A stretch of DNA of 20,455 nt, from the IMG/VR virus record IMGVR_UViG_3300025648_000734, positions 1 through 20,455 of that record; one strand, 5' to 3'. Each line of letters starts with the position of its first letter. Position 1 is the first letter of the stretch. The notes beneath the pieces are model-generated. The model did no database searches and had not been told where the DNA came from. It saw only the letters and a program-made list of their open reading frames with translations. Positions 1 through 20,455 of the stretch are shown one piece after another. Both the position numbers and the translations under genes were made by a program. The DNA comes from a virus.

Positions 1-702
1 ACCAATTCCAGCACCAATGCCGACGTTAGCAAGGTTAGCCATTTCTTCTGGCGAACGTGCCAAACCAGCACCAATGCCGACGTTAGCAAGGTTAGCCATT
101 TCTTCTGGCGAACGTGCCAAACCAGCCACCAACTTACCAAGAGTTCCACCAGCGCGTAACACACCTGTTGGAGAAGGATTAAACCCTCCCAGAGGCATAG
201 CAGCTATTTCACCAGCAGTTGTGGCATTAGGATTCTCTTGTTGTGCAGCGGCTAGAGATTGTTTGTATTGGTCAGATGTTAGTGTGTCCTGTGCGCCACG
301 AACAGCTTTAGAACCAAGGTAAGCACCGACTAGCCCAATAGGAATACCCAACAAAGCACCAGCACCGGTCATATCTAAACCAGCACCAATAGCTAGTGCT
401 AGAGCAGAAGCAACACCAACACCGCCGCCAGCAACAGAAGGAGCTTGGTCAATAGTTGTGCGAATACCTGTTTCAAGTGGCGACGATACTGCCCGTTTAG
501 CTAACGGAGTAACTTGAACTTGAGGAGTATCCTCGAAGTCCTTGTCAGTTACGATGTGGTCTTCTTGTGTTGCACTTGAAGATTGGACAGCACTCTTTAA
601 CTGCATCCCTGTTCCGTCAGGGGTTATCTCCCATTGTGCAGGGTCAAGACCGTGTGCAGCAATGATTTTACTCTGAATATCCGGCGAAGTTAAATCTGGC
701 AT
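1..702 (-). CDS. Internal virion (ejection) protein-like, N-terminal 234 residues, runs off the left edge
   Basis: An open frame starts at ATG 702 (MPDLTSPDIQSKIIAAHGLD) and stays open to base 1, so only its N-terminal part is in the window. It begins 4 bases after the stop of the preceding gene, in the same operon. After a hydrophilic N-terminus, residues about 93-135 form a Gly/Ala-rich hydrophobic stretch (GGGVGVASALALAIGAGLD, then GALLGIPIGLVGAYLG) that could span or insert in a membrane. Residues about 191-230 hold two exact copies of a 19-residue repeat. Short-tailed phages often encode a large protein at this place, last in the virion cluster, that is ejected and crosses the host envelope. 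The position and glycine-zipper-like segment fit that role, but I recognise no catalytic domain in the visible part. Confidence 0.6.
   Translation of the reverse strand, partial: MPDLTSPDIQSKIIAAHGLDPAQWEITPDGTGMQLKSAVQSSSATQEDHIVTDKDFEDTPQVQVTPLAKRAVSSPLETGIRTTIDQAPSVAGGGVGVASALALAIGAGLDMTGAGALLGIPIGLVGAYLGSKAVRGAQDTLTSDQYKQSLAAAQQENPNATTAGEIAAMPLGGFNPSPTGVLRAGGTLGKLVAGLARSPEEMANLANVGIGAGLARSPEEMANLANVGIGAGIG
8..121 (-). repeat. Perfect 57-bp tandem duplication inside the left-edge gene
   Basis: Bases 8-64 and 65-121 are identical. The unit encodes 19 residues (GLARSPEEMANLANVGIGA) twice in frame. The sequence to the left of base 8 (GAGIG in the protein) no longer matches, so I see exactly two copies. 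It may be a real recent duplication in the protein or an assembly artefact near the window edge. Confidence 0.9.
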
Positions 703-706
703 ACTG

Positions 707-1873
707 TTATTGCGCTAGAGGAGTTGGATTAACTGTTGGAACAGTGGCTGGATTGATTATAGTTCTACCAGAAGCAGGGTCGAAGATGTATTGTGGCTGT
801 TGTGCACTTTGTAGTTGCTGCAATAAACTTGCTTGTGGAGGAAGTAGACCTTGCCCCATGTCCGAACTGCCACCGAAGTTAGGAGGAAGATTAACTTGAA
901 CAGGAGTTGGATTAACCTGTGAAACTCCGCCGTCATTGCCAGCAAGTGCAGCTTTGACTTTGTCTGGTTGCAATGGAACAACCACACTAGCACCGGGTTG
1001 TCCACCAGAACTTCTGCTAACTGAGCCGCCGGGATTAGTGCCACCATACATTAAATCAGGATTGATGACTTTTGTTTCAGTAGTAGGATTACCAGTGCCA
1101 AAGTTCTCAAAACGAACACCAGAGCTAGGGTCAAGCATTGTCGACGAACCACCAAGAGGAGCTTCATTGATAAGCGGCGGATTGTAGCCGCGATTCAATC
1201 CAGCTGTGACATTACCGAGAAGCGAAGGGTCTTGTAAAGCTTGACCTTCAACACCCAGCTCTTTAGCAGCATTTTGCTGTTCTTTCTGTTGGACTTTATT
1301 AGTCTGTGCCTCAAGACCACCTTGTCCTATCGAATTAGACTCTGTTAGGGTTATTGCAATTCCGGGGGTTGGTGATACTCCATAGGTATTATCATGACGA
1401 GTAGCTTGGTCAATACCCTGACCAACAACAGCATTGCCACGAGCGTTAGCAGTGAGTGCATTAGCACGGTCGATAAAGTTCTTTTGTGCAAGTGCTTCTT
1501 GCTGTGTCTGCCAGTTTTGTGCTTGAGCAGCTTCTGTAGCTTTGCTGCCGTTCAGTAGTGCGTCAAGAACATGGTGTTTTGGAACCATATTACCATTAGT
1601 ATCCCTGACCAAGTCTGCAGAACCAAAAGCACGTCCAACAGAACCGGGAATAGCACCAACCAATCCAAGCAATCCAGACCCTCTACCAACAGATGAAGGC
1701 ATAGGAGAGACTTGTGGATTAGCGACAGCCACTGGAGTTTGTTCTGGTTGAACAAGGTGAGGAGCAGCTACCTCTGGTAATTGCGGTTGTATTTGTGGAA
1801 GGGCAGAAAGCTGTCCTTGTTGAGCATTTCTAGCCGCCATCATTGCCCTGTATTTTTGTAAGTTAGTTTCCAT
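707..1873 (-). CDS. Gln/Pro/Gly-rich low-complexity virion-associated protein, 388 aa
   Basis: ATG at 1873 with an AT-rich leader and no Shine-Dalgarno sequence; TAA at 709-707. I recognise no family. The N-terminal 20 residues form a short charged helix (METNLQKYRAMMAARNAQQG). The rest is dominated by Gln, Pro, Asn and Gly with no clear globular core, including a middle part rich in Ala/Gln (KATEAAQAQNWQTQQEALAQ) and a C-terminal QLQSAQQPQYIFDPASG stretch. It lies between two other low-complexity genes at the end of the virion cluster, where short-tailed phages keep internal or ejection proteins. A structural or internal-core role is inferred from position and composition only. Confidence 0.7.
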   Translation of the reverse strand: METNLQKYRAMMAARNAQQGQLSALPQIQPQLPEVAAPHLVQPEQTPVAVANPQVSPMPSSVGRGSGLLGLVGAIPGSVGRAFGSADLVRDTNGNMVPKHHVLDALLNGSKATEAAQAQNWQTQQEALAQKNFIDRANALTANARGNAVVGQGIDQATRHDNTYGVSPTPGIAITLTESNSIGQGGLEAQTNKVQQKEQQNAAKELGVEGQALQDPSLLGNVTAGLNRGYNPPLINEAPLGGSSTMLDPSSGVRFENFGTGNPTTETKVINPDLMYGGTNPGGSVSRSSGGQPGASVVVPLQPDKVKAALAGNDGGVSQVNPTPVQVNLPPNFGGSSDMGQGLLPPQASLLQQLQSAQQPQYIFDPASGRTIINPATVPTVNPTPLAQ

Positions 1874-1891
1874 ATTTGTTTGTGATATAGA

Positions 1892-2845: not shown

Positions 2846-2906
2846 AATTTATATTAGTTAATTGTTAATGTAGCAAGTTTAGTGCCAGTTTGTTGGCTGT
2901 GTTATA

Positions 2907-4610
2907 CTATTTTATACTTTGCTGCTTTTGTCCGTCACTGACCATTTTATTGATGTCAGTTGTAATTAGACGTATCTTCATTAAAGAAGCATCATTATCC
3001 CATGTTAGTATGTAGGATAGTTTGAAACCTTTTTTTGTATTATTAAAGTTAAATGTTACTCTGCTTCCTTCCGGTTCTATCAAAGGTTGTATGATTTCTA
3101 GCCCAGCAAATGGTGTTACTGCTGTGGCAGCATTGAGTTCTTTCGTCAGACTTTTGCTCCAAACACCATCACAAAATTCTGTGCAAGTAACAGTTCCGTC
3201 GAATGAACCGTCCCTGAAAAGTAGGTCAATCTTTTGTGACTTTAAGTCGGTAATAGGGCCTGGTGTATTAGCATAGCTAGCAATGCCAGAGTAATATTGA
3301 TTGGCTCCTATTGTGCTGTATGCCCTTGTCGAGAAAAACGGTTTAGCGACAGTTGCATCAGCAGAGTAGAGTTGGTAAATTTTATTGGCAGTTGCGCAAT
3401 AAACTCTTGTTTCCGAGTCAAGATTTATAGTGGCAACTTGAAGTATTTTTCCGATACTGAATATATCAAGTGCTGACCAATGACCGGCTATGGTATCATA
3501 CACAGCTAACAGATAACCGCAAACTGTATTAACAGAAAAGAAAGCGTAGTTGTTATAGCTAAAACAGGTGACGTAGTCTTGTTGCACTCCTGCGAATAGC
3601 TTAGCAACACCTTTTGAGAAAACAGAATTTCGGCCGGAAAACTTTAACTGCTGAACTGCGTTAAAATCTCTCAATCCTTCGCTACTAGCAAAAGCATAAT
3701 CACCACTTATTTCTTGTAGTGCATATTGATTGACAATACCAGTATTGATTATTGCGGATTGTGAAAACAGTGGTTCGCCAAAAATTGTAAGATTGTAATT
3801 AAGAGTTATTACACGAGTGTTGTTCTTGGTCGCGTAGATGAAAGAATCTGTCGCGTTGACAACCTGCAGACAAGTTATAGGGTCATAGTCGAAAGCAAAG
3901 GATGTTGTAGCTGCTCCACCAGATGCCTCAGAACCAAGTTTGTCACCATTTGTGTCAATATTGACCATGAAGTTTAGAGGTTGTCCTGACACAGATTGGT
4001 AGACAGACAGACCATCCGGCGCTACAATGAACAACTTCTGATTCAGAAACATCATCTGTAAACCGATAGGAACATATTCAGAGTCGGTTTGAGTCCAACT
4101 GTTGAAAGTTCCCAATGCTCTGCTGTGGAAGATGTTTGTGTTCTCATCGAACGTAATAAACTGTGGTATGTTTTGGCCATCCTGACAAACAATACCAGTC
4201 GGCATACCAACTGCGCGTCCAGAAACTGTCATTAAGATTGCATCAGTAACACTGCCAGACGAACTAAGTTTGCGAGTGTAGTCCATCGAAGATGCTGGGA
4301 CAGCACATGAGTAAATGTTGGGGGTAGTTGCGTCAAGAGTAAATCCCGGAACTTGAATCCATTGACTACTTGTGTAAAGTTTATACCAAGCGTTGCCAGC
4401 TACGAATGCAATCAAAGAATTACCAACTGTAATAATACCTTGTTTCAAACCTGCTGGTGCACTAGTTAATTCAACAGGCATGGTTACAGGTTCAATATAC
4501 CCATAACGTGAACGTCCGTTGACAAGCCATGTGTAGCCTGTTGTAGAGACTTGTGTGTCTGGATTGATTAAATCAAGACCAGCAGAAAAATTATCTTGCT
4601 CAATAATCAT
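2907..4610 (-). CDS. Tail nozzle / tail tubular protein B-like structural protein, 567 aa
   Basis: ATG at 4610, TAG at 2909-2907. The 567-residue protein is almost all beta. It opens with MIIEQDNFSAGLDLINPDTQ and a segment ending LVNGRSRYGYIEPVTMPVEL, followed by blade-like repeats (GNSLIAFVAGNAWYKLY, ADSFIYATKNN-type hairpins, LLAVYDTIAGHWSALDIFS), which suggests a propeller-like core. Tail hub or nozzle proteins of short-tailed phages open with similar segments pointing at parsed input or mesh values, and lie just after the connector gene as here. It probably forms the distal end of the tail tube. The match is by architecture and gene order; no enzymatic motif is visible. The leader ends in CTAATTGTT before ATG, without a Shine-Dalgarno sequence. 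Confidence 0.6.
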   Translation of the reverse strand: MIIEQDNFSAGLDLINPDTQVSTTGYTWLVNGRSRYGYIEPVTMPVELTSAPAGLKQGIITVGNSLIAFVAGNAWYKLYTSSQWIQVPGFTLDATTPNIYSCAVPASSMDYTRKLSSSGSVTDAILMTVSGRAVGMPTGIVCQDGQNIPQFITFDENTNIFHSRALGTFNSWTQTDSEYVPIGLQMMFLNQKLFIVAPDGLSVYQSVSGQPLNFMVNIDTNGDKLGSEASGGAATTSFAFDYDPITCLQVVNATDSFIYATKNNTRVITLNYNLTIFGEPLFSQSAIINTGIVNQYALQEISGDYAFASSEGLRDFNAVQQLKFSGRNSVFSKGVAKLFAGVQQDYVTCFSYNNYAFFSVNTVCGYLLAVYDTIAGHWSALDIFSIGKILQVATINLDSETRVYCATANKIYQLYSADATVAKPFFSTRAYSTIGANQYYSGIASYANTPGPITDLKSQKIDLLFRDGSFDGTVTCTEFCDGVWSKSLTKELNAATAVTPFAGLEIIQPLIEPEGSRVTFNFNNTKKGFKLSYILTWDNDASLMKIRLITTDINKMVSDGQKQQSIK

Positions 4611-4615
4611 AACAA

Positions 4616-5605
4616 TTAGTTGTCACAAATATCAGCATAATACATTCCGTAGTCATTACCCGACATACGATGACGCCCTCTTGTAAAAATACCATAGTAT
4701 TTATTACGACCCCAATTAAGTTTCTTGTGCATACCTGTTTCAGTTCCATCTTTAACAGACTTCAAGATTTGAGTTGCCCTGGCTAATTCAGCTTGTGCTT
4801 GTGCATCTTTTCCACCCTGCGTTAGGTAGTTAAGATGCAGCATCATATGATAGATAGCTTCATCATAGTCATCACCACCTGAGAAGCTGTCAGTGTCATT
4901 CTTGCATAATAAGAATGGCAACTTGTAGCAAACATCTATGAAAGAATTGCCGTCAATGGTGTCACTCGCTGGCCAGAATATCTGCGAAACATCCATCAAT
5001 TTGTAACGTGTTTTCTGTTCTTTGTTTCCAAGAACAGCTAAAACATTGCCTTGATTGTCACTAATTGTTATGTCATTATTACGGTCATCGAAGCAAGCAA
5101 TACTAAAAATGAGTGGCCCAAACATATTAACAGTAGTCATGCTTGTGGAAGTTATAACTAAATCTTCCTCTAGCTTGCTAGCCGCATTTGTCTGTCCAGA
5201 AATCTTGATAGTAACTGGTGTGTTTTCGATGGCAGGGCAAGTGACAGTAAGTGGCCCAATATTAGTAAGATTTGTGCTAATAGGACTATCTCCCAAATCA
5301 CGCCAGTTCTTTATTTTGTAAAGAAGTGTGCTATTTGTATAGCGAGGAACATTTAATGATTGCAGTGGCACGAGCATTTCTGTTGTGTGAACACGCAAAC
5401 CTTTGACTTCACCAATGAACGATGGCAGAGAGATAATCTTGTCTGGTGGGACAACCAAAGTTACCTCACGAAACATCTTGTTTGACTCTAGCTCATAGTG
5501 AAATATGCGACAAGCGGCATTGAAGTAGTCTACAAGAACTGCCCTATCTTGTGCTAGGTCAATCCCTGTTTCTGCCGCAACTCGTTTAATGACGGGATAT
5601 AGCAT
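4616..5605 (-). CDS. Head-tail connector / tail tubular protein A-like, 329 aa
   Basis: ATG at 5605, TAA at 4618-4616, ending 5 bases before the next gene. The N-terminus is helical (VIKRVAAETGIDLAQDRAVL, then DYFNAACRIFHYELE) and the C-terminal third holds a second helical region (YDEAIYHMMLHLNYLTQGGK, followed by QAELARATQILKSVKDG). Between them lies a beta insertion of about 150 residues (roughly residues 105-200). Helices at both ends that close into a ring, interrupted by a beta domain, are typical of adaptor or tail tubular A proteins that dock under the portal. The basic tail (KKLNWGRNKYYGIFTRGRHR) could contact DNA or the nozzle. Position directly before the nozzle-like gene supports the call. 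Confidence 0.6.
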   Translation of the reverse strand: MLYPVIKRVAAETGIDLAQDRAVLVDYFNAACRIFHYELESNKMFREVTLVVPPDKIISLPSFIGEVKGLRVHTTEMLVPLQSLNVPRYTNSTLLYKIKNWRDLGDSPISTNLTNIGPLTVTCPAIENTPVTIKISGQTNAASKLEEDLVITSTSMTTVNMFGPLIFSIACFDDRNNDITISDNQGNVLAVLGNKEQKTRYKLMDVSQIFWPASDTIDGNSFIDVCYKLPFLLCKNDTDSFSGGDDYDEAIYHMMLHLNYLTQGGKDAQAQAELARATQILKSVKDGTETGMHKKLNWGRNKYYGIFTRGRHRMSGNDYGMYYADICDN

Positions 5606-5620
5606 AATAGTGTAAGAGTG

Positions 5621-6829: not shown

Positions 6830-6835
6830 AATGAA

Positions 6836-7959: not shown

Positions 7960-7970
7960 AACAATTAGGA

Positions 7971-7988
7971 AAAAGAAAGAAAGAAAGA
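7971..7988. repeat. AAAG microsatellite, pyrimidine tract on the coding strand
   Basis: The + strand reads as four AAAG-type units in the 58-base gap between the 172-aa gene and the spanin-like gene. On the transcribed (minus) sense it is a TTTC tract about 12-30 bases upstream of the 172-aa start codon. A weak GAGTGTCTC hairpin precedes it, but I do not call a terminator. Confidence 0.7.
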
Positions 7989-8927: not shown

Positions 8928-9212
8928 TTATTTCTTCCGAAAATTGATTGGTTTGGTGGCGCTGTTCGTCAGGCAGTTGCTCCAATCGGATTCAAAGCCG
9001 TTGGTGTCCGTCTGCGTCACGGCGGCGTAGCCGCCCGGAGGCGGAATCAAGTTGAAAACATTCGTGGTGAAAGTGGTTGTGTTCGTCGCGCCATTGTTCA
9101 CCACATACACCGTGTAGCTCGTCGCCGTAGGGCACGGGTCGCACGTCAGATTGACCGGAGCCGCCGAGCAGCCAGCCGCCAGCAACGCAAGGATGAGGGT
9201 GAAGGGTTTCAT
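8928..9212 (-). CDS. Phage-encoded lipoprotein with a fibronectin-III-like domain, 94 aa
   Basis: Start ATG 9212 overlaps the TGA of the spike gene by 4 bases and is preceded by AAGGTGG, the clearest Shine-Dalgarno sequence in the window; a longer frame up to 9368 lies inside the spike gene and is rejected. The N-terminus MKPFTLILALLAAGC is a textbook lipoprotein signal with lipobox LAAGC (Cys 15). The mature part (SYTVYVVNNGATNTTTFTTN; PPGGYAAVTQTDTNGFESDW) has the Y-x-V-Y opening and G-x-Y-x-x-V-T-x-T-D-x-x-G-x-E-S-D-W-S-N ending of fibronectin type III domains. It should be anchored on the host membrane, possibly in the outer membrane, during infection. The role is unknown: surface exclusion, adhesion, or partner of the exported spike are possible. 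Confidence 0.65.
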   Translation of the reverse strand: MKPFTLILALLAAGCSAAPVNLTCDPCPTATSYTVYVVNNGATNTTTFTTNVFNLIPPPGGYAAVTQTDTNGFESDWSNCLTNSATKPINFRKK

Positions 9213-11503
9213 TGTTCCACCTTGTAAGTCCAGATATAAGTGGTTGACGTAGCTAATCCCGTCGCCCCGCCCCACACGATGAATTTTAGACTGGATGAAG
9301 TCGCCGAGTCCGGCCAAGTTGTAGTTGCGCCGGAAAGCTGCGCGGCGGCAGTGTTGGCCGGCGTCCAAACGATATGCGGTGCAGTTTTATAGGGTGTGGC
9401 ATAGGTATTCGTAAAGATACCCGTCGCTGAAGGAACAACTACACCAGTAGCAATGGTTACTGTTCCAGACGAATCGCTGGCGGAGGCGTCGGCTGTGACC
9501 GTAGCCGCTGCCCCCAGCACGTTGGTATTCAATCCAAGCACCGGATGACCGTGCTTGAAGTTACCCGCGTAATGGGGAGAGAAAGTTGTTCCATTGGTTG
9601 TCCAGAAGAACGGCACCGCATAGCCGCTGTCCCAAGTCGGGTTTCCTGCGTAAAACGGTGAGAGAACAAAATCGTCCACAGGATAAGCGTCCCCGCCGCC
9701 GCCGCTCTGGTCTTGAATACCCGGTTGCCAAGTAACCTGACCACTGCCAGATTCCCACACATCATAAACCTGCCCCGCAGAAGTGGTCTGAATGTCTCGA
9801 ACCGCATAGCCTGTCATATTTTTACAGGTCTGGACAACCGTATTTGAAAAATAAGCACTCCCAAAGTGGCTATATCCGCCGGGGTTTCCGACATTCCCAT
9901 AACCTCCAACCCCATTAAAAATTGCCCCACCCGTTGATTTCATCGGGCCTACAAAAACTGTGTTAGTATTGAAAGTTTCCAATGCGCGCCATACCTTCGG
10001 CGTGCTGTCCTGCTCGGCATTGCCGTAATTTTCCTTATACCAAAACGCCGTGCCTTGACCAAAAGTGTCATCCGCATCCGTCACCACTGCTCTTGGCCCT
10101 TCGCCTAACTTTTGAACCGTGACTTTACTCCCGAAATTTAACGCAGTTGAATGTCCGTTGTAACCGATAACTTGCGGTGCATTGGTCAGCCAGTCAGGAG
10201 TATTGCCGGGATAGATGTCGCGGGCATAAACATCAACATTGATGTCTGGTGCCCAAGTGCCTGTCCGATTGACGGTATCAATCCAGTTCGCACACGCGGC
10301 AGGATAAAAATGGTTCACCTTCCCAACCCCACTTCCGCCCGTCATGCGACAAGTGAAACAATTAGAACACCCCGACATGAATAAATGGTCAAAATTAAAG
10401 ATGCCTGCATCAACGCCGTTCATAAACGAATTGATGCTTACAATATCATAGAAATACCCATAAGAGCCTTCGTAGTTATTGGGCATTATCATTGCGAAGC
10501 CGTTGGTGCCTAAGGGGGCGGGTAGCGAACTGCCGTTGATAGTTGAGCTAAAAAAGAATAAGTTGCCGCCGCCGACTTCGCCAGCCCCCAGCAAGTTTAG
10601 CACACAGCAGTTGGCATCATAGCCGGTAATAAAAGACAAGTCATCAAACTCCTCTCGCATTCCCGCTGATGGCACATAAATACTACCGTCAGTCATTACA
10701 TAAGCAGGATTTGCAAACGGTCTAAAATCAAACACCGACGCGCCGCACCTGTTAGTTCCCGTCCAGTTCGCACCTTGAAGGTTGGAAAGAAAGCCTGCTT
10801 CGTAATTTAATGGGGCGAATTTGTTGTTGAAATAGTTCCATGCCGGTGCGCTCCGTCCAATCATCTTGAACCGTGGCCCCATATTTTCTTGGCCGCGAGC
10901 GGGGATGATGATTTGAGCGTTGTTTTGGTTGGTTAATTGCGGCGGATTAAGAATAGCTACCACCCCCACGTCGTTAAAGAAAACATCCGGCGGCACGGCG
11001 TTTGACCATTGATTCACCCACGTTTGAACGGCGGCGCTAGAATCGTAACCGTAGGCGCAGTTATATCCAGCCGTCAGCGCGGCCACATTCCCCGGTAAAG
11101 CATTTGAGTAAGACAGATAAACCGAGTTGGATAGAACAATTTGATTGGGAGCAAGCACGTTGGAAATGCCCGTCCAAAATCCGCGCCGATTGAAGCCCGC
11201 ACCATCAATGAAGATAACCTTACCAATGTCGCCCGCCACGAAATTTGACGAAGTAAAGGCGACAACGGGATTATTGGAAACCGCCAATGCTCCAAACGCC
11301 CATTTCCACGCCGTTGCACCGTAAGCGGAAAGCCGGTTGGTGTAGATGACCGCGCCGGTCTGACCCGCATTGACGATGGAGATTACGCCATTCGTCGTCA
11401 ACGCGCCGGGGGTGGTGGAGCCGGAACTATCTATATTTATGAACTCACCTTGACCAAAACAAGTAAAAGAAAAGAACAAAGAACAAAATAGAAAATTTTT
11501 CAT
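9209..11503 (-). CDS. Beta-helix tail-spike-like protein with an N-terminal signal peptide, 764 aa
   Basis: ATG at 11503, TGA at 9211-9209. Residues 1-18 (MKNFLFCSLFFSFTCFGQ) look like a Sec signal peptide with cleavage near FG-QG. Residues about 83-160 match the head of pectate-lyase-like spikes: FTSSNFVAGDIGKVIFIDGA, a turn, then QIVLSNSV and YGYDSSAAVQTWVNQW, the last resembling the usual YGTDDTAAIQ. Residues about 170-560 fit a right-handed beta-helix, with irregular Gly/Asn-rich turns. The C-terminus (DSSGTVTIATGVV; APHIVWTPANTAAAQLSG; TTYIWTYKVEQ) follows the adhesin domain widespread at the ends of phage tail fibres. It probably binds or cuts a surface polysaccharide; I could not identify catalytic residues. 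A signal peptide on a spike is odd. Base composition is clearly more GC-rich than in the flanking structural genes. Confidence 0.65.
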   Translation of the reverse strand: MKNFLFCSLFFSFTCFGQGEFINIDSSGSTTPGALTTNGVISIVNAGQTGAVIYTNRLSAYGATAWKWAFGALAVSNNPVVAFTSSNFVAGDIGKVIFIDGAGFNRRGFWTGISNVLAPNQIVLSNSVYLSYSNALPGNVAALTAGYNCAYGYDSSAAVQTWVNQWSNAVPPDVFFNDVGVVAILNPPQLTNQNNAQIIIPARGQENMGPRFKMIGRSAPAWNYFNNKFAPLNYEAGFLSNLQGANWTGTNRCGASVFDFRPFANPAYVMTDGSIYVPSAGMREEFDDLSFITGYDANCCVLNLLGAGEVGGGNLFFFSSTINGSSLPAPLGTNGFAMIMPNNYEGSYGYFYDIVSINSFMNGVDAGIFNFDHLFMSGCSNCFTCRMTGGSGVGKVNHFYPAACANWIDTVNRTGTWAPDINVDVYARDIYPGNTPDWLTNAPQVIGYNGHSTALNFGSKVTVQKLGEGPRAVVTDADDTFGQGTAFWYKENYGNAEQDSTPKVWRALETFNTNTVFVGPMKSTGGAIFNGVGGYGNVGNPGGYSHFGSAYFSNTVVQTCKNMTGYAVRDIQTTSAGQVYDVWESGSGQVTWQPGIQDQSGGGGDAYPVDDFVLSPFYAGNPTWDSGYAVPFFWTTNGTTFSPHYAGNFKHGHPVLGLNTNVLGAAATVTADASASDSSGTVTIATGVVVPSATGIFTNTYATPYKTAPHIVWTPANTAAAQLSGATTTWPDSATSSSLKFIVWGGATGLATSTTYIWTYKVEQ

Positions 11504-12121: not shown

Positions 12122-13408
12122 TCATTGACCACGTTTACGCGCAAACAAAATGGGAATGATGTTGCGCGGTTGTTTACGTTTGACACCAAACGTAACCTGA
12201 CTGATGAACTTGAGATATTCACCATATTGATTGGTTTCCCAATACAAAGTTCCGTCGTCAGCGTAGCACGGAATGAGGAAGTTCTTGGTAATCTGGACTT
12301 CACCATTCCAGAACATTTTACCAAATCCTTTCGGCATACCAGAGCCAGAGAACGCAGACGGAGGAGGCCCGACTTCAATGCTTTCATAACCCTCAGCACC
12401 AACCAAGAAAGCGAACTCATAAGGAGAACCGCTGACAGGGTCAAGAGAGGTATATGAAGGTGACGGAACAGACTCACCAACATTGTATGCATTAGGGTCA
12501 AGTTCACGCACTTCCGGTGCAGCAAATGAACCATCAACCTTCATACGCAAAGGTTTGTCCTCAAGCACGCAAGTAATGCGACCAAACAAGGAACCCTTGA
12601 AACGGTCGTTAATCACGTCAAGTGAGCAGTTCTTGTTGTTCAACAGCCACGGGTCAAAGGTAAACTGATTAAAAGCTTCGGACGAGCAGACAAGCACATA
12701 CTTATCAGCCATTCCTTCACTATCTTTCGGGATACCAGAGCCAGAGAACGGAGGAACACGAAGGTCGGTTTCCATCACCGTCAGCAGTTTGTTAAGAGTC
12801 TGGAACGATAAGTTACCAGCATTACCAATCTGCGGAACAAGTGTTTGCAAGAAACCTTGTGTTTTACCATCAGTGCCAGCCAAGTTACCAACACCAATAG
12901 GTGCAGCAATAAGTGGATTAACAGCATCAGGAAGCCACACCCAAGGAGCAGCATGGAATACACGGCCACGAAGATAAATATCTTCAAAGCGCTCTTCCTT
13001 CTCCATGATATCTTGACCACACGCATCAACGTGGTCAGTCAAGAAGTCACGGAAAGACGGAACAAAGTTAAGGACATTGCTTTCAAAGCGATGCCGATAA
13101 ACCTGTTCGTCAATGCTGCGTTCACGAATATCAATTACGTCCTTTTTCGGAGCAACTGAAATTTCGTTAGGATAGGCAAACTGCCGAATGTGCGGAGAAG
13201 GTTCCTTTGTAACGGAACGCATCGTTGCACCCATATTCGGGGTCCACTTAGTTTTACCGAAGAAACGACGCCAAGTCGTCCAAGTTTTACGACGCTCCAC
13301 TTGCATTTTGGCAAGATAGAAAGGTAACTTGTTATACAAGTTTACATCCTGTTCTGTCCAACCGGAACAAATGTTAGCATCGATGGCAGGAATAGTAGCC
13401 AAAGGCAT
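12122..13408 (-). CDS. Major capsid protein, 428 aa
   Basis: ATG at 13408, TGA at 12124-12122. It is the only gene of suitable size downstream of the scaffold gene, and its leader is the longest non-coding gap inside the virion cluster. Residues about 35-125 ([58 protein letters not shown]) carry a basic, conserved-looking segment that I associate with capsid proteins of uncultured short-tailed phages. Residues about 110-160 ([32 protein letters not shown]) follow. I assume the HK97 fold, the norm for tailed phages, but cannot show it from sequence. The leader ends in ACAAATAACTT before ATG, with no Shine-Dalgarno sequence. A 27-base repeat gives two FSGSG-x-PK loops inside the protein. Confidence 0.75.
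12329..12355 (-). repeat. Internal duplicated loop of the capsid gene, copy 2 (copy 1 at about 12725-12751)
   Basis: The + strand at 12336-12354 and 12733-12751 shares 19 identical bases (ATACCAGAGCCAGAGAACG), and the match extends about 8 bases leftwards with one mismatch. In the protein the copies encode FSGSGIPK near residues 222-230 and FSGSGMPK near residues 353-361. They lie in the same frame, about 132 codons apart. Confidence 0.75.
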
Positions 13409-13594
13409 AAGTTATTTGTGTTAAAGTTTACTAACAATCGCTGGTTTATGATTCTATCAAACCAACAAACGTAGTTTCCGGCCCAAGAAACAGTTAGAAG
13501 CCATCGAACATGGAGTGCTCAACCTCCGTAGAAGCAAGAGACTTAAAGCAACTTTTATGCCAAGTGCTTTAGTAAAGTATAAGGCGCTGTCGCT

Positions 13595-13644
13595 CGCTCC
13601 GCATTAGACGACCCTTGCAGAAGAACGCCGCAGGTTCGCGGAGC
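13595..13644 (-). promoter_or_regulatory. Second GC-rich inverted repeat in the capsid leader
   Basis: CGCTCCGC (13595-13602) pairs with GCGGAGCG (13637-13644), 8 of 8 bases, enclosing 34 bases. CCGC at 13627-13630 can instead pair with GCGG at 13637-13640, so two mutually exclusive folds are possible. The function is unknown. Together with the 13661-13704 stem it makes a structured domain of about 110 bases. Confidence 0.45.
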
Positions 13645-13660
13645 GTCTTTGGGCCTTTAG

Positions 13661-13704
13661 TGCAAGAGTTGTGCTACCGCCTTCGGCATCAGGCACAACT
13701 CTTG
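13661..13704 (-). promoter_or_regulatory. Long perfect hairpin downstream of the exonuclease gene
   Basis: Bases 13661-13673 (GCAAGAGTTGTGC) and 13692-13704 (GCACAACTCTTGC) are perfect 13-base inverted repeats. The 18-base loop itself contains a GCC-TTC-GGC mini-hairpin (13678-13686). The minus-sense stem is not followed by a T tract (it continues CACTAAAGG), so it is not a standard terminator. It could stabilise the 3' end of the upstream mRNA, serve as an RNase III site, or be part of a small RNA. Confidence 0.65.
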
Positions 13705-13727
13705 CGCGGCGCAACCACACCCGAACG

Positions 13728-14303
13728 TCACAGCATAACGTGACGGTTATCGCAAAGCCACTTGAACACTTTGGCAGTAGCTTTGACATCCGAAAGAGCA
13801 TCATGTGCTCCTTTGAAATCTTCTTTGAAACAATACTGATATGCTTCTTGAAGTTTCGGCCATTTGTAAGTTTGTCGCTGTGAAGCAAGTTTGCAAATTG
13901 GTGTCATTAACTCCATTGTGCAAATAAACTTCCTATGAGACCAGTCAACCTTAAAGTCTGACTGTTGATTTTCAATGTCGACAAGCTGCGAGTCGAATCG
14001 AATGTTGTGTGCAACAACTTTGTCTGCCCTGTTCAAGCAACTGTTAAACAGTGGCATAACATTGCTGATATGCTCGCCAAACTTATTGCACTGGTCTGTG
14101 CTGATTCCGTGTGCCGCTTGTGCGCCAGATGACACTGATTTACCGGTCGGCAGTTTAACCAAAGACTTAAAACAAGACAACTCTTTGAAGTTATCATCTA
14201 GCACAAGAAATGCTAGTTGAATAATTCTTGCTTGTGCTGGATTGTCTTTGGGGAGATTCTTGGAAGGGAATCCAGTTGTCTCTGTGTCAAAGATGAGAAT
14301 CAT
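13728..14303 (-). CDS. DEDDh 3'-5' exonuclease, DnaQ-like, 191 aa
   Basis: ATG at 14303 overlaps the scaffold TGA by 4 bases, with AAAGG 8 bases upstream, so translation is coupled to the scaffold. All motifs of the DEDDh class are visible: Exo I FDTETTG (Asp 6, Glu 8), Exo II VAHNIRFDSQLV (Asp 104) and Exo III GAHDALSDV (His 167, Asp 172). The length is typical for a stand-alone exonuclease of the DNA polymerase III epsilon or RNase T type. It should remove nucleotides from DNA or RNA 3' ends in the cytoplasm with two metal ions. It is intact. Its place between scaffold and capsid genes is unusual, since such enzymes normally sit with replication genes; a role in head maturation or DNA-end processing cannot be excluded, but it may simply be a passenger. 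Confidence 0.88.
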   Translation of the reverse strand: MILIFDTETTGFPSKNLPKDNPAQARIIQLAFLVLDDNFKELSCFKSLVKLPTGKSVSSGAQAAHGISTDQCNKFGEHISNVMPLFNSCLNRADKVVAHNIRFDSQLVDIENQQSDFKVDWSHRKFICTMELMTPICKLASQRQTYKWPKLQEAYQYCFKEDFKGAHDALSDVKATAKVFKWLCDNRHVML

Positions 14304-15430
14304 TCGTCAGCCTTTACTTTAGCAAAATCATCCATTGTTACTTCACCCTTATTAGAAGTATTGTCAGCCGACAAGCCAGATGCAGTAGGGCCAGCTTTTG
14401 TTTGGGCTAACTTCTTCTTGTCCTCAACAGTAACAGTTGCTTTTCCTGTCTCGACGGATTTCAATTTTGCAAGTAGAGCATCTATGGAAGTCAATGCTTT
14501 GGCAAGAGGCGAAGCAAGTATGTTCTTCTGGACAGCTTTTGGCATCTTGCTAAGTGTATCTTTGTAAATAGCATTGAGAGGTGTTTTGTCATCCTCAAAC
14601 ACTTTGAAAAAGTCTTTCTCCCATGTGCGAATACTGTTGGTGAGTTCTGTGTGTTTCGATGAATACTCTGCCTTAACGCGACCAAGAGACTGTTGAAACT
14701 GTGATGCTTGTGAGTTAGCACTAAAGAACAAAGATTCCAAATAAGACTGTGTTCTCTGGTCAACTTTCTGTTTTGCAGCATAGACAATCTGCTTTGACAC
14801 AGGGTCGCGTTGTAGTGTAACAAAGTCTGTTGCTCCTTGACGAACATTGTCCAACTGCTCACGCCAATGTTCTAGGACAAGTTGTGCTTCATTAGCAGCA
14901 GTTGCAGCTTGGTTATATTCAGGGGTTAAAGTGTAAGCTTCTGGATGTTCATAGTATGTCTCTGGAATACCACCAGCTTGTGCAATAGGAGAATTCTTCT
15001 TCAACTCTGCCAGTTCAGCCTGTGCTTTGGTGGCCTCAAGATAGAAAGGCTTTAGGGTGTTAAAAGCATCATTGCCCATTGTCTTGAACAACGGGACAAC
15101 ATTCTCCGGCAAGCCAGAATAATCTCTAGCAATAGCACCTTTCTTTCCAATAACAGGTTGACCAGCCGCTTTCACTTCTGCAGCAGGTTTAGCGACTATC
15201 TCTTCTTTTTTAACTCCGGAGGCTGGAGCTACCTCAGCTTCAACTTCCTTAACAGGCTCCTTTTCTTTCGACATTTCTGGCATATCTTTGACAGCACCGA
15301 AGCTATCAAAGTTTATCTCTGGTTCTGTCGAAGTTACTTCTGCGACAGGAGTTTCTACTGCTGCCTCTGCGACAGGAGTAGCTTCACCAGAGGGAACACC
15401 GTCAGGACTGATTTCATTTGTTGCTGGCAT
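14300..15430 (-). CDS. Capsid scaffolding protein, 376 aa
   Basis: ATG at 15430, preceded by AGG about 7 bases upstream; it overlaps the end of the 92-aa gene by 17 bases. Residues 1-90 are low-complexity and rich in Glu, Pro, Ala, Val (EMSKEKEPVKEVEAEVAPAS). Residues about 115-260 are helical with heptad character (PFYLEATKAQAELAELKKNS; AAQLV-type helix LEHWREQLDNVRQGA; QSLGRVKAEYSSKHTELTNS). The C-terminus is again helical and charged (AVQKNILASPLAKALTSIDA; MDDFAKVKADE). An acidic, extended, coiled-coil protein between portal and major capsid genes is the standard picture of a scaffold that guides capsid assembly and then leaves. The call rests on composition and position, not on a specific motif. 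Confidence 0.7.
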   Translation of the reverse strand: MPATNEISPDGVPSGEATPVAEAAVETPVAEVTSTEPEINFDSFGAVKDMPEMSKEKEPVKEVEAEVAPASGVKKEEIVAKPAAEVKAAGQPVIGKKGAIARDYSGLPENVVPLFKTMGNDAFNTLKPFYLEATKAQAELAELKKNSPIAQAGGIPETYYEHPEAYTLTPEYNQAATAANEAQLVLEHWREQLDNVRQGATDFVTLQRDPVSKQIVYAAKQKVDQRTQSYLESLFFSANSQASQFQQSLGRVKAEYSSKHTELTNSIRTWEKDFFKVFEDDKTPLNAIYKDTLSKMPKAVQKNILASPLAKALTSIDALLAKLKSVETGKATVTVEDKKKLAQTKAGPTASGLSADNTSNKGEVTMDDFAKVKADE

Positions 15431-15692
15431 ATTTACCTACGACTTTCCGAAGCATGTTTGCTTCTATGAGTTTATGGACGATTTGTTTGTTGTTGTCTGA
15501 CTGATGATTAACAAGCGCCAACCCGATAGCATCAGCTACTAGCGAGTCAGATTGTGCAAGTAATTCTTTGAATACTTGTTGTGTTCTGGAAGAAGAAAGC
15601 CAAGCATGACGAGCGTTTAATGTTTCAGCATCTTCTTCCACGATAGGTTCTTTGTCTGCGGAACCATGAAGTGCAGCATAGTATTTACTCAT
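15414..15692 (-). CDS. Small helical protein between portal and scaffold, 92 aa
   Basis: ATG at 15692 overlaps the portal TGA by 4 bases, with AAAGGTG about 10 bases upstream. The protein is helical and soluble (SKYYAALHGSADKEPIVEED; RTQQVFKELLAQSDSLVADA; NKQIVHKLIEANMLRKVVGK), with no signal peptide or membrane span. I do not recognise the family. Small helical proteins at this place in other short-tailed phages are sometimes minor head proteins or assembly helpers. That role is inferred from position only. Confidence 0.7.
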   Translation of the reverse strand: MSKYYAALHGSADKEPIVEEDAETLNARHAWLSSSRTQQVFKELLAQSDSLVADAIGLALVNHQSDNNKQIVHKLIEANMLRKVVGKYASNK

Positions 15693-17608
15693 TGCGGAAC
15701 TGCACCTTTCTGTTGGCCATGCTCAACTGACTGTTTAATCTTGTCTCCTTCCATCATTAACTGACCAAGTTTAGCTTGGTCTTCTGGCGACAATTGTTTG
15801 ATAGTGACATCGTGCTGTTTAACAAGTTCTTGACACAGCGTTGTAAACCCTGCAATAACTTGGCCAGCTTGTGCTAATTGCTGTTGCAACTGTGTTTGTT
15901 GATTTTGTTTTCCTTGTTCAATAACTTTAGCATATTGCTCTCCTTTGGAAGGATAAGACAAACGAATAAGGTCAGCGAGAAACTGGTCAGCAAGTGCTGT
16001 CTTTTGAACTACTGCCCAATCTTGTTTCATCTGTTGCAGTAACTCAGAACGCTGCACAACATCAACATCGCCAGCCGCCCTAACTTCAAACACTTGTTTA
16101 ATGGTGTCAATGTCATTGTGCCAGTTTGGTTTGGTCATCGGTTGACCATTTTGAATGATAGGCTGCTGTGTTGCTGGATTAAGGATAGGTGTAGGAGTAT
16201 TGATTAACAGAAATGTGATAAGATTCTGTTGTGCCTGTGACTGAGCAATCTTCCAGCACAAAGAATAGATAGCACGAATGTAGGAAGAAAACAGTGTTAG
16301 CTGAACAGAGTTAAGAAGATTGGATTGCTGTTCTGCCAGTGACATTTCTTTTGCTGTCTTACGTGAATCTTCACGATTCATTACAGCAAAGTTAGTCTGG
16401 TTGGTTTCTTGTGAGTTGCTGGTGTCCATATACTGCAAAGCTTTCAGAATCTGAAAGTCAGGATATGGAGCAGAGAAAAAGTTGAAAGGTTTGTTTAGAA
16501 CAGTTCCACCTTCAATTGGATTGTCAGCTATCTCTTTGACAGAATTGCCAGAACCGTCATCCTGCGCAGGAGAGGCAAGAATCTTTGTAGCCCGCGAAAC
16601 ACCATTAACAAAAGCTGACAGAACACCAGTTTGCGCTTCTTGTTTAGGCGCATCCAAGAATACTCTGCCATGTTTCTCTACCAATTTTGGTTTCTCTGAC
16701 TCACGATAAGGTAGAATAAAGTATGGATACTCTGTCAAACTAACCGGTTCCCAAGAAGTAGTTGGTTGTTGTGTGATAGGGTCAATGCTCTGCTGTTCTT
16801 TATCAATTCCAAGATAAAGATTTTCCGGCGCTTTAAGCCAGTCAGAAACTCCATCTTCAACAGAGAACCATGCTACCTTGACAATGCCATCTTCCTTATA
16901 CATGACTTTATGTATACGACAGGTTTCACTTTCTTTCTTTCCTTCTTTGCGAGCGTTGACAATTTTGTTTACTTCCGAAATATTCCAGCCAAATTGTTTG
17001 ACGAAAGTCTGCAGTTCGATTAGTGAGTAGTCGTAGGCACGAATTACACGAGGAGCTTGCTGGATATCTTTAGTTGTTCTAGGCCAGAATAAACTATCAA
17101 AACCAACGTGTTCAATACCAATGTTAAGAGGCTTGGTAGAGTCATAGACCACCTCAACACTATCCCAACCATGTGTTGCAGCACCATCAACAGTCTTGTA
17201 GTGAACTTTCTCCCAATCTTGATATGTCATTCCACGGGTAAACTCTAGTTCAATTTTGCTGGTGTCAAGGTCTGGAAGTGACAGACAGTTGAAGATGCAG
17301 ATACGACGAGAATTCTTGAGATAGTTGATGTATGGAGGCTGCTCTCGTTGGATGTTTGTATCAATGATACGGACAGGAATCATTGTCTCATCTTCATCAA
17401 GAGTTCCCTCACGACGCAGAACTTCAACAGAGAACTCTACATCACGAGTTTTGCGGTTCTCTTTGGCCTTCTCACGAAAGTGTTCCCAGTCATTTATGAG
17501 AGCCTTTAGTTTGATGGATGCAGTCTGGAAGTCAGTCACCGTGCTAATCTTCTCAGGTTGTTCTGCATCCTTTAGGAGAGCACTATTGTCAGGTTGAAGT
17601 TCATTCAT
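15689..17608 (-). CDS. Portal protein, 639 aa
   Basis: I choose ATG 17608 (MNELQPDNSALLKDAEQPEK), one base after the stop of the preceding gene. A longer frame exists from TTG 17647, but it would overlap that gene by 38 bases. AAGGAG lies 13 bases upstream of the chosen start. The size suits a podoviral portal, and the gene lies directly downstream of TerL as expected. Visible regions: an N-terminal helical part with LKALINDWEHFREKAKENRK; the GWDSVEVVYDSTKPLNIGIE and FDSLFWPRTTKDIQQAPRVI segment, common in podoviral portals; a middle part VLSAFVNGVSRATKILASPA; a long helix near residues 430-480; and a Gln-rich C-terminal helix (QNQQTQLQQQLAQAGQVIAG) as in the barrel or crown of portals. Twelve copies should form the DNA entry ring. 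Confidence 0.78.
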   Translation of the reverse strand: MNELQPDNSALLKDAEQPEKISTVTDFQTASIKLKALINDWEHFREKAKENRKTRDVEFSVEVLRREGTLDEDETMIPVRIIDTNIQREQPPYINYLKNSRRICIFNCLSLPDLDTSKIELEFTRGMTYQDWEKVHYKTVDGAATHGWDSVEVVYDSTKPLNIGIEHVGFDSLFWPRTTKDIQQAPRVIRAYDYSLIELQTFVKQFGWNISEVNKIVNARKEGKKESETCRIHKVMYKEDGIVKVAWFSVEDGVSDWLKAPENLYLGIDKEQQSIDPITQQPTTSWEPVSLTEYPYFILPYRESEKPKLVEKHGRVFLDAPKQEAQTGVLSAFVNGVSRATKILASPAQDDGSGNSVKEIADNPIEGGTVLNKPFNFFSAPYPDFQILKALQYMDTSNSQETNQTNFAVMNREDSRKTAKEMSLAEQQSNLLNSVQLTLFSSYIRAIYSLCWKIAQSQAQQNLITFLLINTPTPILNPATQQPIIQNGQPMTKPNWHNDIDTIKQVFEVRAAGDVDVVQRSELLQQMKQDWAVVQKTALADQFLADLIRLSYPSKGEQYAKVIEQGKQNQQTQLQQQLAQAGQVIAGFTTLCQELVKQHDVTIKQLSPEDQAKLGQLMMEGDKIKQSVEHGQQKGAVPQ

Positions 17609-17609
17609 A

Positions 17610-17915
17610 TTAGTCTTGTGACTCCTTGGCTTCGTTGAAGTCGTCAACAGTCACTTCTTTCTCGTTACGCAATTCTTCGTCACGCTGATATGCCATGTCA
17701 CGGATGAACGATAACTGTTCTTTGGTGGCATCTTTGATAAGCTCCATTACTTGCATCTGGAATTCTTCGGTAAGAGGGACTTCTGCTTCGCTAACTTCCT
17801 TCTCTCCCTTGTCAGTTCCTTCTTGAGTTTCTTCCGGAGAAGTTGCACCAGTTTTATCAAGCTCATTGTCTTCCTGTTCAGGTTGTTTTTTTTCAGTTGT
17901 CGGAATAGATGCCAT
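17610..17915 (-). CDS. Small acidic helical protein between TerL and portal, 101 aa
   Basis: I choose ATG 17915 (MASIPTTEKKQPEQEDNELD), with AAGAAG 6 bases before it; the longer frame from 17948 would only add a basic, TerL-overlapping stretch. The gene overlaps the TerL end by 23 bases. The N-terminal 45 residues are disordered and very acidic (TGATSPEETQEGTDKGEKEV); the C-terminal 55 residues form a charged helix (TEEFQMQVMELIKDATKEQL, followed by SFIRDMAYQRDEELRNEK). There is no membrane segment. I recognise no family. It may be a packaging or portal assembly accessory, on position alone. Confidence 0.65.
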   Translation of the reverse strand: MASIPTTEKKQPEQEDNELDKTGATSPEETQEGTDKGEKEVSEAEVPLTEEFQMQVMELIKDATKEQLSFIRDMAYQRDEELRNEKEVTVDDFNEAKESQD

Positions 17916-19707
17916 ATGTATCTTCTTTGTTGTTTGTTTTGCCAACACCCAATGCTACTTGTAAAGAGCCTTTGGCTTTGTGTTTACCACCAGTATTACC
18001 TTGAATCATTTCGTATTCTTTAAAAGTAATACCATCATAAAAATCTTGGACTTCCTGCGAAGTCTTTAGAACTTTTCGCTTTGGTTCATCGTCTTTCTTG
18101 ACCCGTGTTTCTCCTAGAAAATCTTCTATAGTTAAACCGGAGAAAGTAAGACAAAATGCATCCGCTCTGTCCGGCGAGTGTTGTCCCTCAGCCTTAGCTT
18201 CTTTCTTTGGTTGAAGAAAAACGCGGCCACCTTGCTGTTGTTTGAACTTACGCGATACCAACTGTTCTCTGCACTTACGAGAAATACCTTTAAGGTTAAA
18301 GCACTTTTCCTCAAAGATTCGACGAACATTGAAATACAACTCTGCACCACGATTGCCAAATCGTTTGCGATTATAGGCTGCCGATTGATTAAGAACTCTG
18401 TGAATTGTCCAGCCATACTGCTCGCCTGTTAGCATATCTATTACAGCATGACCTATGCCACCATCGTCAGCAAAAATATAATCGTGAGTTTTAGATATGC
18501 CCATTCTAGTAAGTCGCTCATTAAGCCAGCGAGCAGTGACAGTGGTGTCTTTCTCGACAAGGAACTCCTCTGATACTATCTTAACTCCTCGGCAAGCAGT
18601 AATTACTGTTTCATCACCACCAGCAGCTATATCAATACCAATGCGAAGTGGCCAAGATAAGAAGTCAAAAATAGGCGGTTCAGCTATGAGTAAGTCAACA
18701 ATAGTGGCAGGGATAACTGTCTCGGTGTCAAGGTAGGTGAACAAGGCTAGATGCTTGGAACGATACTCTGGAGAGTCTTCACCCAACTCTCTCTTATCTT
18801 CTTCTCTTTCTTGTTCACTAATGTGTGGACAATCATACGACGTAACCGAACGTCCTGTTTTCCAATTAGTGGCAGCATAATGGAAAGCGCCAATGGGTGC
18901 ACCGGGAGAAGATATTTCAAGCCAGTAGTTGTATCCAGTGCATCTTTTAAGTGCTTTATGGATGTCTTCGGGAATTGATTTGGACTCATTTTTAATGATA
19001 GCCATCTCTGCATTTGGCTCTAGTGGATGGTATCCCTCTGCTTTACCAGCTTCGTCTGTTGCAAACATCCGTATTACAGAACCAGACTTGAGACAACGAA
19101 TGTAACGCTGACGTATCTTAAAGATTGGTGTTCCTAGTTTCTGATTAACACGTTCTGCAAGGGAACGAATATAGGATTCTGTTTGTGCAGTAAGCTGTGT
19201 TCCAGAAGCTGACGTAATGATTACTTGTGAACGAATTTTCGAGAGAACAAACCATATAGCAAAAGGTGCTATCACGAAAGCATCTTTGCCAGAACCATTT
19301 GCTGCAACTAGAAAATATTTAAGTGGATTCTTGCTGGTTGGTTTAACAGCAGGAGCAAGGTCAAGATTAACGTCTTTCTGCCACTGATGCATTGTGACTT
19401 CACCAGTCATAATGCTATCATTGAACATTGCTAGAACATGGGCAGGAGTGGGAAACTCAAACGCAGCCCAACCTTCATTAGGACGTTCTTCATCCTCTGC
19501 AAAGTCACCGGCATACTTTCTACCCTGTGTGTAAGTTATCTCTGACTTTGTCTCTGCTGCCGGAACTTGAATAGGAGTGATTTCTAGCTTTTCTGTGGGA
19601 GTCGGTTCTACTGCAACTTGTTGTTTAGGAGAGGCGGGCTGGGATAACTCTGGAATCTGGCCAGAGTTAATCATGTGTTCAAGTTGTTCTACCGAGTAGT
19701 CACTCAT
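17893..19707 (-). CDS. terL: Terminase large subunit, 604 aa
   Basis: ATG at 19707 overlaps the TerS TGA by 4 bases. Residues 1-80 are a polar, Pro/Glu-rich extension of a kind not universal in TerL. The ATPase follows: Walker A LVAANGSGKDAF at residues 133-144 (Lys 141), and a Walker B-like strand AEMAIIKNESK near residues 233-243, where the usual Asp before the catalytic Glu is Asn. The nuclease domain shows the RNase H-like acidic triad: IGIDIAAGGDET (Asp 359), YIFADDGGIGHAV (Asp 414/415) and SPDRADAFCL (Asp 513/516). Walker A and all three nuclease segments are intact, so the enzyme should translocate and cut DNA at the portal. It packages concatemers; the cut type (cos or pac) cannot be told from this. 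Confidence 0.93.
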   Translation of the reverse strand: MSDYSVEQLEHMINSGQIPELSQPASPKQQVAVEPTPTEKLEITPIQVPAAETKSEITYTQGRKYAGDFAEDEERPNEGWAAFEFPTPAHVLAMFNDSIMTGEVTMHQWQKDVNLDLAPAVKPTSKNPLKYFLVAANGSGKDAFVIAPFAIWFVLSKIRSQVIITSASGTQLTAQTESYIRSLAERVNQKLGTPIFKIRQRYIRCLKSGSVIRMFATDEAGKAEGYHPLEPNAEMAIIKNESKSIPEDIHKALKRCTGYNYWLEISSPGAPIGAFHYAATNWKTGRSVTSYDCPHISEQEREEDKRELGEDSPEYRSKHLALFTYLDTETVIPATIVDLLIAEPPIFDFLSWPLRIGIDIAAGGDETVITACRGVKIVSEEFLVEKDTTVTARWLNERLTRMGISKTHDYIFADDGGIGHAVIDMLTGEQYGWTIHRVLNQSAAYNRKRFGNRGAELYFNVRRIFEEKCFNLKGISRKCREQLVSRKFKQQQGGRVFLQPKKEAKAEGQHSPDRADAFCLTFSGLTIEDFLGETRVKKDDEPKRKVLKTSQEVQDFYDGITFKEYEMIQGNTGGKHKAKGSLQVALGVGKTNNKEDTYGIYSDN

Positions 19708-20144
19708 GCTGGTTTACTTTCAACATCCACTGGTTTGTTATAGATTAGTTCATTGGCCCTGCGCAACTGCTCATTGAACATTAGAACATTGAAAGTTGTT
19801 CCCGCCAAAGCTTTAACAGCGTCAAGACGACCTTTCTTGTCTTGACGTATGTATTTGCAAGCATCAAGGGCCACTGCTTCCGAGTCAGAGCTAACTGCAA
19901 TTTCGTAGATACGGTCATTAACTCGTAGGAGTTGTTCGTCTGTGAAGTTAAGGTCAGTCTTTCCGGCATTGCTGTCGGAAGAATTTCCGGCTTCAAGTCC
20001 GCAATCTTTACGATACTTCGCCGACGACGAAGCCAGTGTCATCTTTACAGCCTCCGGCTCCAACTGTCTGTCTTCGGCAATCTCTGCCGGTGACATACCA
20101 AGTTGTTCGTAAGACAATCTAATTTGTTCTACTTCTGTTGACAT
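19704..20144 (-). CDS. terS: Terminase small subunit candidate, 146 aa
   Basis: ATG at 20144, directly before TerL with a 4-base ATGA overlap. Residues 1-40 look like a homeodomain-type helix-turn-helix (IRLSYEQLGMSPAEIAEDRQ, then LEPEAVKMTLASSS), the usual DNA-binding start of small terminases. Residues about 65-135 form helices (FTDEQLLRVNDRIYEIAVSS; ALDACKYIRQDKKGRLDAVK; NEQLRRANELIYN) suited to oligomerisation. It should bind the packaging site and feed DNA to TerL. Position is strong support; the sequence match is by pattern only. No Shine-Dalgarno sequence precedes the start (GGTTGCCTGT). Confidence 0.75.
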   Translation of the reverse strand: MSTEVEQIRLSYEQLGMSPAEIAEDRQLEPEAVKMTLASSSAKYRKDCGLEAGNSSDSNAGKTDLNFTDEQLLRVNDRIYEIAVSSDSEAVALDACKYIRQDKKGRLDAVKALAGTTFNVLMFNEQLRRANELIYNKPVDVESKPA

Positions 20145-20272
20145 ACAGGCAACCAGAACTTCACTGTTGAGGACAACTCTCTACCCTCCGAAAGTAACCA
20201 CCTACCATAATCCGACAAGGAGAATCGTTCGTCCATAACTATCTGTTCTGTTCCTATTGAGTTATCGGTCAT
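20129..20272 (-). CDS. Possible small ORF of 47 codons upstream of TerS
   Basis: ATG at 20272 (MTDNSIGTEQIVMDERFSLS) runs to TAG at 20131-20129 and overlaps the TerS start by 16 bases in another frame. The translation is fairly protein-like (YGRWLLSEGRELSSTVKFWL), but no Shine-Dalgarno sequence precedes it and the length is within chance. It may be a leader peptide or not a gene. Confidence 0.3.
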   Translation of the reverse strand: MTDNSIGTEQIVMDERFSLSDYGRWLLSEGRELSSTVKFWLPVCQQK

Positions 20273-20455
20273 ACAAGTAGAGGAAAGCAAGAAGTATGCC
20301 AAAGGAAATGTGTTATATCCAGAGAATAGTTGTGGAGGAGGAATTTTGTGCGAGTATGGGTATATGCGAATCGGGCTTCATTTCTGGGTCATATCAACTT
20401 CTGACTCAAACTTACGGCATAATACACTACTAAAGTAGTGTATGTTTGACTGGCC
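20145..20455 (-). other. Leader region upstream of the packaging genes
   Basis: Apart from the doubtful 47-codon ORF, this 311-base stretch has no gene on either strand. It holds the palindrome at 20422-20443, and TATAAC (minus sense) near 20312 that could be a -10 box; no good -35 box lies 16-18 bases upstream. It may contain the late promoter of the virion operon or, since it lies before TerS, the packaging recognition site. Neither is shown by sequence alone. Confidence 0.5.
20422..20443. promoter_or_regulatory. Near-perfect palindrome, operator-like
   Basis: Two 10-base arms, ATACACTACT and AGTAGTGTAT, are perfect inverted repeats separated by AA. The very short spacer favours a dimeric protein binding site over an RNA hairpin, and no T tract follows on either strand. 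It lies 278 bases upstream of the TerS start, at the head of the transcription unit. Confidence 0.55.

Follow-up and report, generated by a model that had tools for sequence, protein, structure and literature searches.

Complete loss of GATC and GTAC from a tailed-phage fragment suggests past restriction in Verrucomicrobiota hosts

Why should a stretch of viral DNA contain not a single copy of two particular tetranucleotides? The window analysed here, by which we mean the whole 20,455-base stretch of IMG/VR record IMGVR_UViG_3300025648_000734, had been described in a first-pass annotation as fully devoid of GATC and GTAC, and an exact count gives zero for each word on either strand, both being self-complementary. 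The annotation had put the expectation at about 70 copies per word; base composition alone yields 77.5 for each, and a maximal-order Markov model lowers this to 52.0 for GATC and 50.6 for GTAC. A Markov count of all 256 tetramers, as the annotation had suggested, places these two words lowest, with z = -9.0 for both, and the Poisson probability of finding none is approximately 1e-20 to 1e-22 per word. The remaining 14 self-complementary tetramers are all present at 27 to 104 copies each, in keeping with the earlier remark that such words are easy to find, and two of them fall mildly short of the Markov expectation (CATG, 36 observed and 71 expected; AATT, 91 and 134). The absence also extends, as had been claimed, through the GC-rich spike block, where 5.3 kb contain neither word (11 and 14 expected). 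Both words fall within the range that defines site elimination, an observed/expected ratio below 0.1 at an expectation of at least 15. When synonymous codons were permuted within genes, which leaves proteins and codon usage unchanged, the window genes were expected to carry 45 GATC and 51 GTAC sites and carry none, which rules out codon or amino-acid bias as the cause. The avoidance acts on DNA, and protein or codon usage is not its source.

Judged by its large terminase gene, the window derives from a tailed-phage genome, and its genes, those given here all on the minus strand, include a structural module with terminase, portal-like, scaffold-like, capsid-like and tail genes. The major-capsid-like protein (428 aa, 12122..13408; function by position and conservation) and the terminase served as the queries that retrieved relatives in IMG/VR, among them eight longer contigs of 47-55 kb (G1, G2 and G4-G9). 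The large terminase subunit (604 aa, 17893..19707) is 77-79% identical to those of G1 and G2, 48-52% to those of G4-G7 and G9, and 42% to that of G8, and the capsid-like protein is 58-92% identical in relatives. Upstream of the terminase lies a 146-aa protein (19704..20144) that, by position, is probably the small terminase subunit. The portal-like protein (652 aa, 15689..17647), syntenic in all relatives, is likewise assigned by position, and the putative scaffold protein between portal and capsid (14300..15430) by synteny; next to it lies a DnaQ-type 3'-5' exonuclease (13728..14303; phrog_192, PF00929). A GC-rich block encodes a receptor-binding-like protein of 764 aa (9209..11503), whose function is suggested rather than established, and two further conserved proteins, one of tail/neck type (567 aa, 2907..4610) and one structural (329 aa, 4616..5605), have no assigned function. 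At the contig start (window positions 1-130) some 60 bases are repeated in tandem, either as a virion-gene repeat or as an assembly-end effect.

The annotation had further suggested looking for the same double avoidance in related contigs, and five of the eight longer relatives lack both words almost wholly: observed and expected counts are 0/122 GATC and 2/116 GTAC in G1, 1/233 and 0/116 in G6, 3/242 and 0/129 in G7, 7/156 and 0/196 in G8, and 0/156 and 2/87 in G9. The other three divide the trait. G2 is without GATC only (1/147, with GTAC at 145/173), G4 without GTAC only (7/114, with GATC at 209/254), and G5 fully lacks neither word (GATC 166/233, GTAC 79/150). Against the codon-shuffle null, G4 holds 180 GATC sites where 175 are expected and G2 holds 135 GTAC sites where 157 are expected; avoidance, where it is missing, is therefore wholly or nearly missing. 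The ends of G1 overlap exactly over 127 bases and those of G2 near-exactly over 222 bases, and since these overlaps close each contig we regard both as near-complete. When five structural proteins were concatenated for a tree, G1 paired with G2 and the window branched outside the pair; G4 and G5 took separate positions, that of G4 at an unsettled fork. Taken together, this tree and the patchy counts argue that GATC and GTAC avoidance come and go independently.

These relatives also bear on whether digestion or filtering at the two words, during library preparation or assembly, could account for the pattern. Both words are common enzyme sites, and we found nothing else in favour of such an artefact. 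Independent contigs from further metagenomes show the same pattern, which is therefore not specific to the assembly of the window; that family members keep one word while losing the other refutes the artefact, and G1 closes by its exact overlap. A 6.9-kb contig, L004, which matches part of the window at 99.4% identity, has one GATC where the window reads GACC (position 17147, in the portal-like gene), the difference being isoleucine in L004 and valine in the window. A filter can select, yet it cannot make a genome with zero of some 50 expected sites, and we regard an artefact as practically out of the question.

How sites are lost can be followed between the sister genomes. G1 shares not one of the 87 GTAC sites at which G2 genes could be aligned with it; at 54 of these sites the two genomes differ by a single base, synonymously in 46 cases. 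Control words are retained between the same genomes at 25 of 48 sites (CATG), 23 of 112 (AGCT) and 30 of 91 (ACGT). Some other words are also scarce in this group. G4 and G5 (L024-L029) are low in TCGA against the codon null (20/91 and 31/91), and G5 additionally in CCGG (4/19) and GGCC (13/30), deficits that likely reflect other restriction pressures; the viral contig L015, from a distantly related phage, has lost another palindrome completely (CGCG, 0 of 35 expected). Separately, the DNA polymerase gene of G1 (L008:12041-14008) encodes 655 aa, compared with about 345 in relatives, and carries an insert that may be an intein.

Do the phages themselves encode the cause? Scans of G1 (Pfam, PADLOC and PHROGs) and of G2, G4 and G5 (Pfam) revealed no DNA methyltransferase, nor did a motif search of the window fragment and all relatives; in these four genomes the scans returned genes for replication, an ATPase that resembles sigma-54 activators, kinases, and nucleases belonging to the PD-(D/E)XK and RNase-T types. 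Protection by a methyltransferase in the non-avoiders G2, G4 and G5 was considered and rejected, as none was found. Alternatively, a phage-encoded GATC or GTAC nuclease might serve host takeover, with the phage immune through having no sites. Complete absence would indeed confer such immunity, and small unknown proteins exist in the phage, but gene presence does not track avoidance: no family is present in all GATC avoiders yet missing from G4 and G5, and none is present in all GTAC avoiders yet missing from G2 and G5. The close relatives G1 and G2, moreover, differ totally in GTAC. An unrelated enzyme in each lineage would still fit, and we judge a phage nuclease highly unlikely. Because no methyltransferase is recognisable and no gene tracks avoidance, we favour passive site removal over self-protection or a phage nuclease. 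Strong and lasting selection by host restriction, as first proposed in the annotation, is the reading best supported by an avoidance that acts at the DNA level, is specific to each word, arises independently for the two and has no explanation in a phage methyltransferase or nuclease.

Which hosts could have exerted this selection? The nearest isolated terminase relatives are those of the Akkermansia phages DTMo-2021a, Chambord and Chantilly, at 27-34% identity; among isolated phages there was no near-DNA match to the window, tblastn with the capsid gave no match, and a capsid search of genome contigs retrieved no relative. A terminase profile matched 27 genome contigs, most of them from Verrucomicrobiota (Akkermansia, Luteolibacter, Opitutales and subdivision 3). 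The best of these, L047, from the metagenome-assembled genome G010, shares the window's gene order, with identities of 49% for terminase, 39% for portal and 43% for capsid, and contains GTAC at 0/20 and GATC at 34/54 of expectation. G010 combines this phage-family contig with a PabI homologue of apparently exported type and a chromosome almost free of GTAC (5 of 275 expected in 185 kb of sampled pieces); it falls in the GTDB phylum of Luteolibacter marinus, with which it shares a phylum draw. L047 could be misbinned, given a GC content of 50% vs 62% for G010. From the terminase relationships we infer that Verrucomicrobiota are the hosts of this phage family. Some Akkermansia genomes (L063, L070, L088 and L096) are low in GATC (0/35, 11/59, 14/63 and 31/82) and have normal GTAC, opposite to the pattern of the GTAC-free group. 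The available portion of the Lake Biwa methylome study reports neither a GATC nor a GTAC motif for Verrucomicrobia (PMC6329791).

Enzymes with suitable specificities occur in this phylum. Among 289 sampled Verrucomicrobiota genomes, DpnII-type genes (PF04556) were found in 9, PabI genes (PF09522) in 4 and MutH/Sau3AI-type genes (PF02976) in 3; within G010's order, DpnII-type genes are rare (3/320). At least two genomes hold both enzyme families. G327 has a DpnII type together with an apparently exported PabI homologue, and G173 has a PabI-type and a MutH/Sau3AI-type gene, each adjoining a methyltransferase, and is low in both words in its sampled DNA (GTAC 15/150, GATC 164/353). By inspection, the methyltransferase beside the MutH-type gene of G173 resembles those beside the DpnII-type genes of G352 and G327, which supports GATC specificity for that gene. 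The canonical PabI genes of G173, G200, G144 and G219 all have an adjoining methyltransferase. Other words are depleted in Verrucomicrobiota chromosomes as well, GGCC strongly so in L172-L180 of G173 and G200 and in L127, L128, L131 and L144 (42/360, 26/285, 14/61, 17/93, 21/71 and 10/96), and GCGC in L129 and L130. MutH also raises the question of whether GATC was lost to methyl-directed mismatch repair, in which MutH nicks unmethylated GATC, as for enterobacterial phages (Deschavanne and Radman 1991, as cited in PMC4687349). The presence of the family in the phylum would allow this, but its genes are rare there, the G173 copy, the one inspected in detail, adjoins a DNA methyltransferase in the manner of a restriction pair, and the loss of GTAC would go unexplained; we therefore consider mismatch repair a very improbable cause.

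Several Verrucomicrobiota chromosomes are themselves nearly free of GTAC. Besides G010, G019 has 0 of 126 expected sites in 121 kb of sampled pieces, and G115, a 6.1-Mb single contig (L132 and L146-L165), has 7 of 755 in 420 kb, six of the seven falling in two clusters, as in acquired islands. In these chromosomes GATC is near normal to moderately reduced, and among the genomes examined none is without both words as fully as the phage. A phage could have drifted towards such host word usage with no restriction involved, and the existence of GTAC-free chromosomes is what makes mimicry of this kind conceivable. However, the candidate chromosomes keep GATC near normal when the phage has none, and their GC content of 56-64% is far from the 42-44% of the phage. 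These two contrasts imply that the words were removed individually, and mimicry seems to us very unlikely.

PabI homologues are associated with GTAC loss in the chromosomes. They occur in 7 of 78 genomes of the order of G010 and in G019, eight genomes in all, and the GTAC ratio is near zero in seven of these eight (the exception being G347, 28/54), compared with a range of 0.44 to 1.3 among six genomes in that order that have no homologue (Mann-Whitney one-sided p 0.0015, on small samples and uncorrected for phylogeny). All eight (L192:7617-8786, L193:8573-9460, L194:8963-9802, L195:9792-10643, L196:5732-6607, L197:1553-2383, L198:143-949 and L213:1495-2349) begin with signal-peptide-like N-termini, that is, first residues of positive or neutral charge, then a hydrophobic segment and a site of signal-peptidase type, all ahead of the conserved domain, an arrangement from which canonical PabI proteins differ; apparently, then, these proteins are exported. 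A motif IV search found no methyltransferase adjoining any of the seven homologues tested; the only motif matches, in L195 and L197, were distant. The homologues score above the PF09522 cut-off, match the PabI structures PDB 2dvy and 7cfa (E about 1e-25 to 1e-33), and retain equivalents of the glycosylase residues Y68, H211 and D214, as well as R32 and E63; at the position of K154, four homologues carry lysine and the other four arginine. These features point to a PabI-type adenine glycosylase as a frequent agent against GTAC. G115 gave no PabI match and is nevertheless GTAC-free, so at least one other GTAC agent must exist. We tentatively raise the possibility that an exported PabI-type glycosylase attacks foreign GTAC with no modification enzyme, the cell being protected by its GTAC-purged chromosome and the extracytoplasmic location of the enzyme, and that phages lacking GTAC survive. 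In a review, PabI genes always adjoin a methyltransferase (PMC10273834), and in a survey almost all do (PMC4615327); the literature that we searched held no paper on an exported or solitary PabI form.

A defence other than restriction might also read these words, through phosphorothioation or through methylation-dependent type IV enzymes. To our knowledge, GTAC is not a phosphorothioation word. GATC is both an archaeal phosphorothioation word and a methyl-dependent target (PMC7230728, PMC4687349), but site elimination has been described chiefly for orthodox Type II systems (PMC6286503), which makes such a defence a very unlikely source of the pattern.

We think it likely, then, that this phage lineage infected Verrucomicrobiota with two separate restriction activities and lost its sites by selection. 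The window would be a fragment of a lytic-type tailed phage; one host activity would cut unmodified GATC and the other attack unmodified GTAC, site-bearing phage genomes would be cut on entry until point mutations, mostly synonymous, had removed every site, and selection would keep both words out thereafter. In one group of hosts, those with GTAC-depleted chromosomes, the GTAC agent may be the apparently exported PabI homologue with no adjoining methyltransferase. The annotation's suggestion that the host could be predicted from its restriction systems holds up as a lead, as the terminase points to Verrucomicrobiota, a phylum with both enzyme families and with GTAC-free chromosomes. The word statistics of a viral fragment can in this way yield a testable host prediction, and close phage relatives without GATC only, GTAC only, both or neither form a natural experiment. 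If the enzyme works without methylation, telling self by a missing word would mean that restriction can follow a different logic.

Compared with known GTAC systems, the PabI family (R.PabI, HpyAXII and CcoLI) is GTAC-specific and its Helicobacter hosts avoid GTAC, as the Verrucomicrobiota carriers of homologues mostly do. In H. pylori GTAC stands at 0.11 of expectation, a bias attributed to its PabI enzyme (PMC12366791), and the Verrucomicrobiota chromosomes are poorer still (0 to 0.02); their homologues differ from the R.PabI family in the signal-peptide-like N-termini and, in the seven tested, in having no adjoining methyltransferase. The three Akkermansia phages, unlike the window, carry GATC and GTAC at 0.68 to 0.88 of expectation, and Chambord and Chantilly encode integrases and methyltransferases, the latter not found in the window's family. 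In the HF1-group haloviruses CTAG and GATC are wholly absent from all seven isolates, which has been attributed to host restriction (PMC7230728). Like the window they have completely lost two palindromic tetramers; unlike it they are archaeal myoviruses, their second word is CTAG and not GTAC, and several encode methyltransferases, for which we found no counterpart in the window's phage family. Rusinov 2018 presented the removal of Type II sites as a strategy against restriction, with near-total loss (observed/expected below 0.1) that is stronger in non-temperate phages and with GATC avoided in 46 of 46 phages of hosts that carry a methyl-directed GATC enzyme; its main text does not mention GTAC (PMC6286503). 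That study starts from known hosts, whereas the host of the window is deduced. With these two precedents the site loss in the window belongs to a known phenomenon: the elimination of restriction sites in phages is established, and the novel lead is the host-side enzyme of Verrucomicrobiota.
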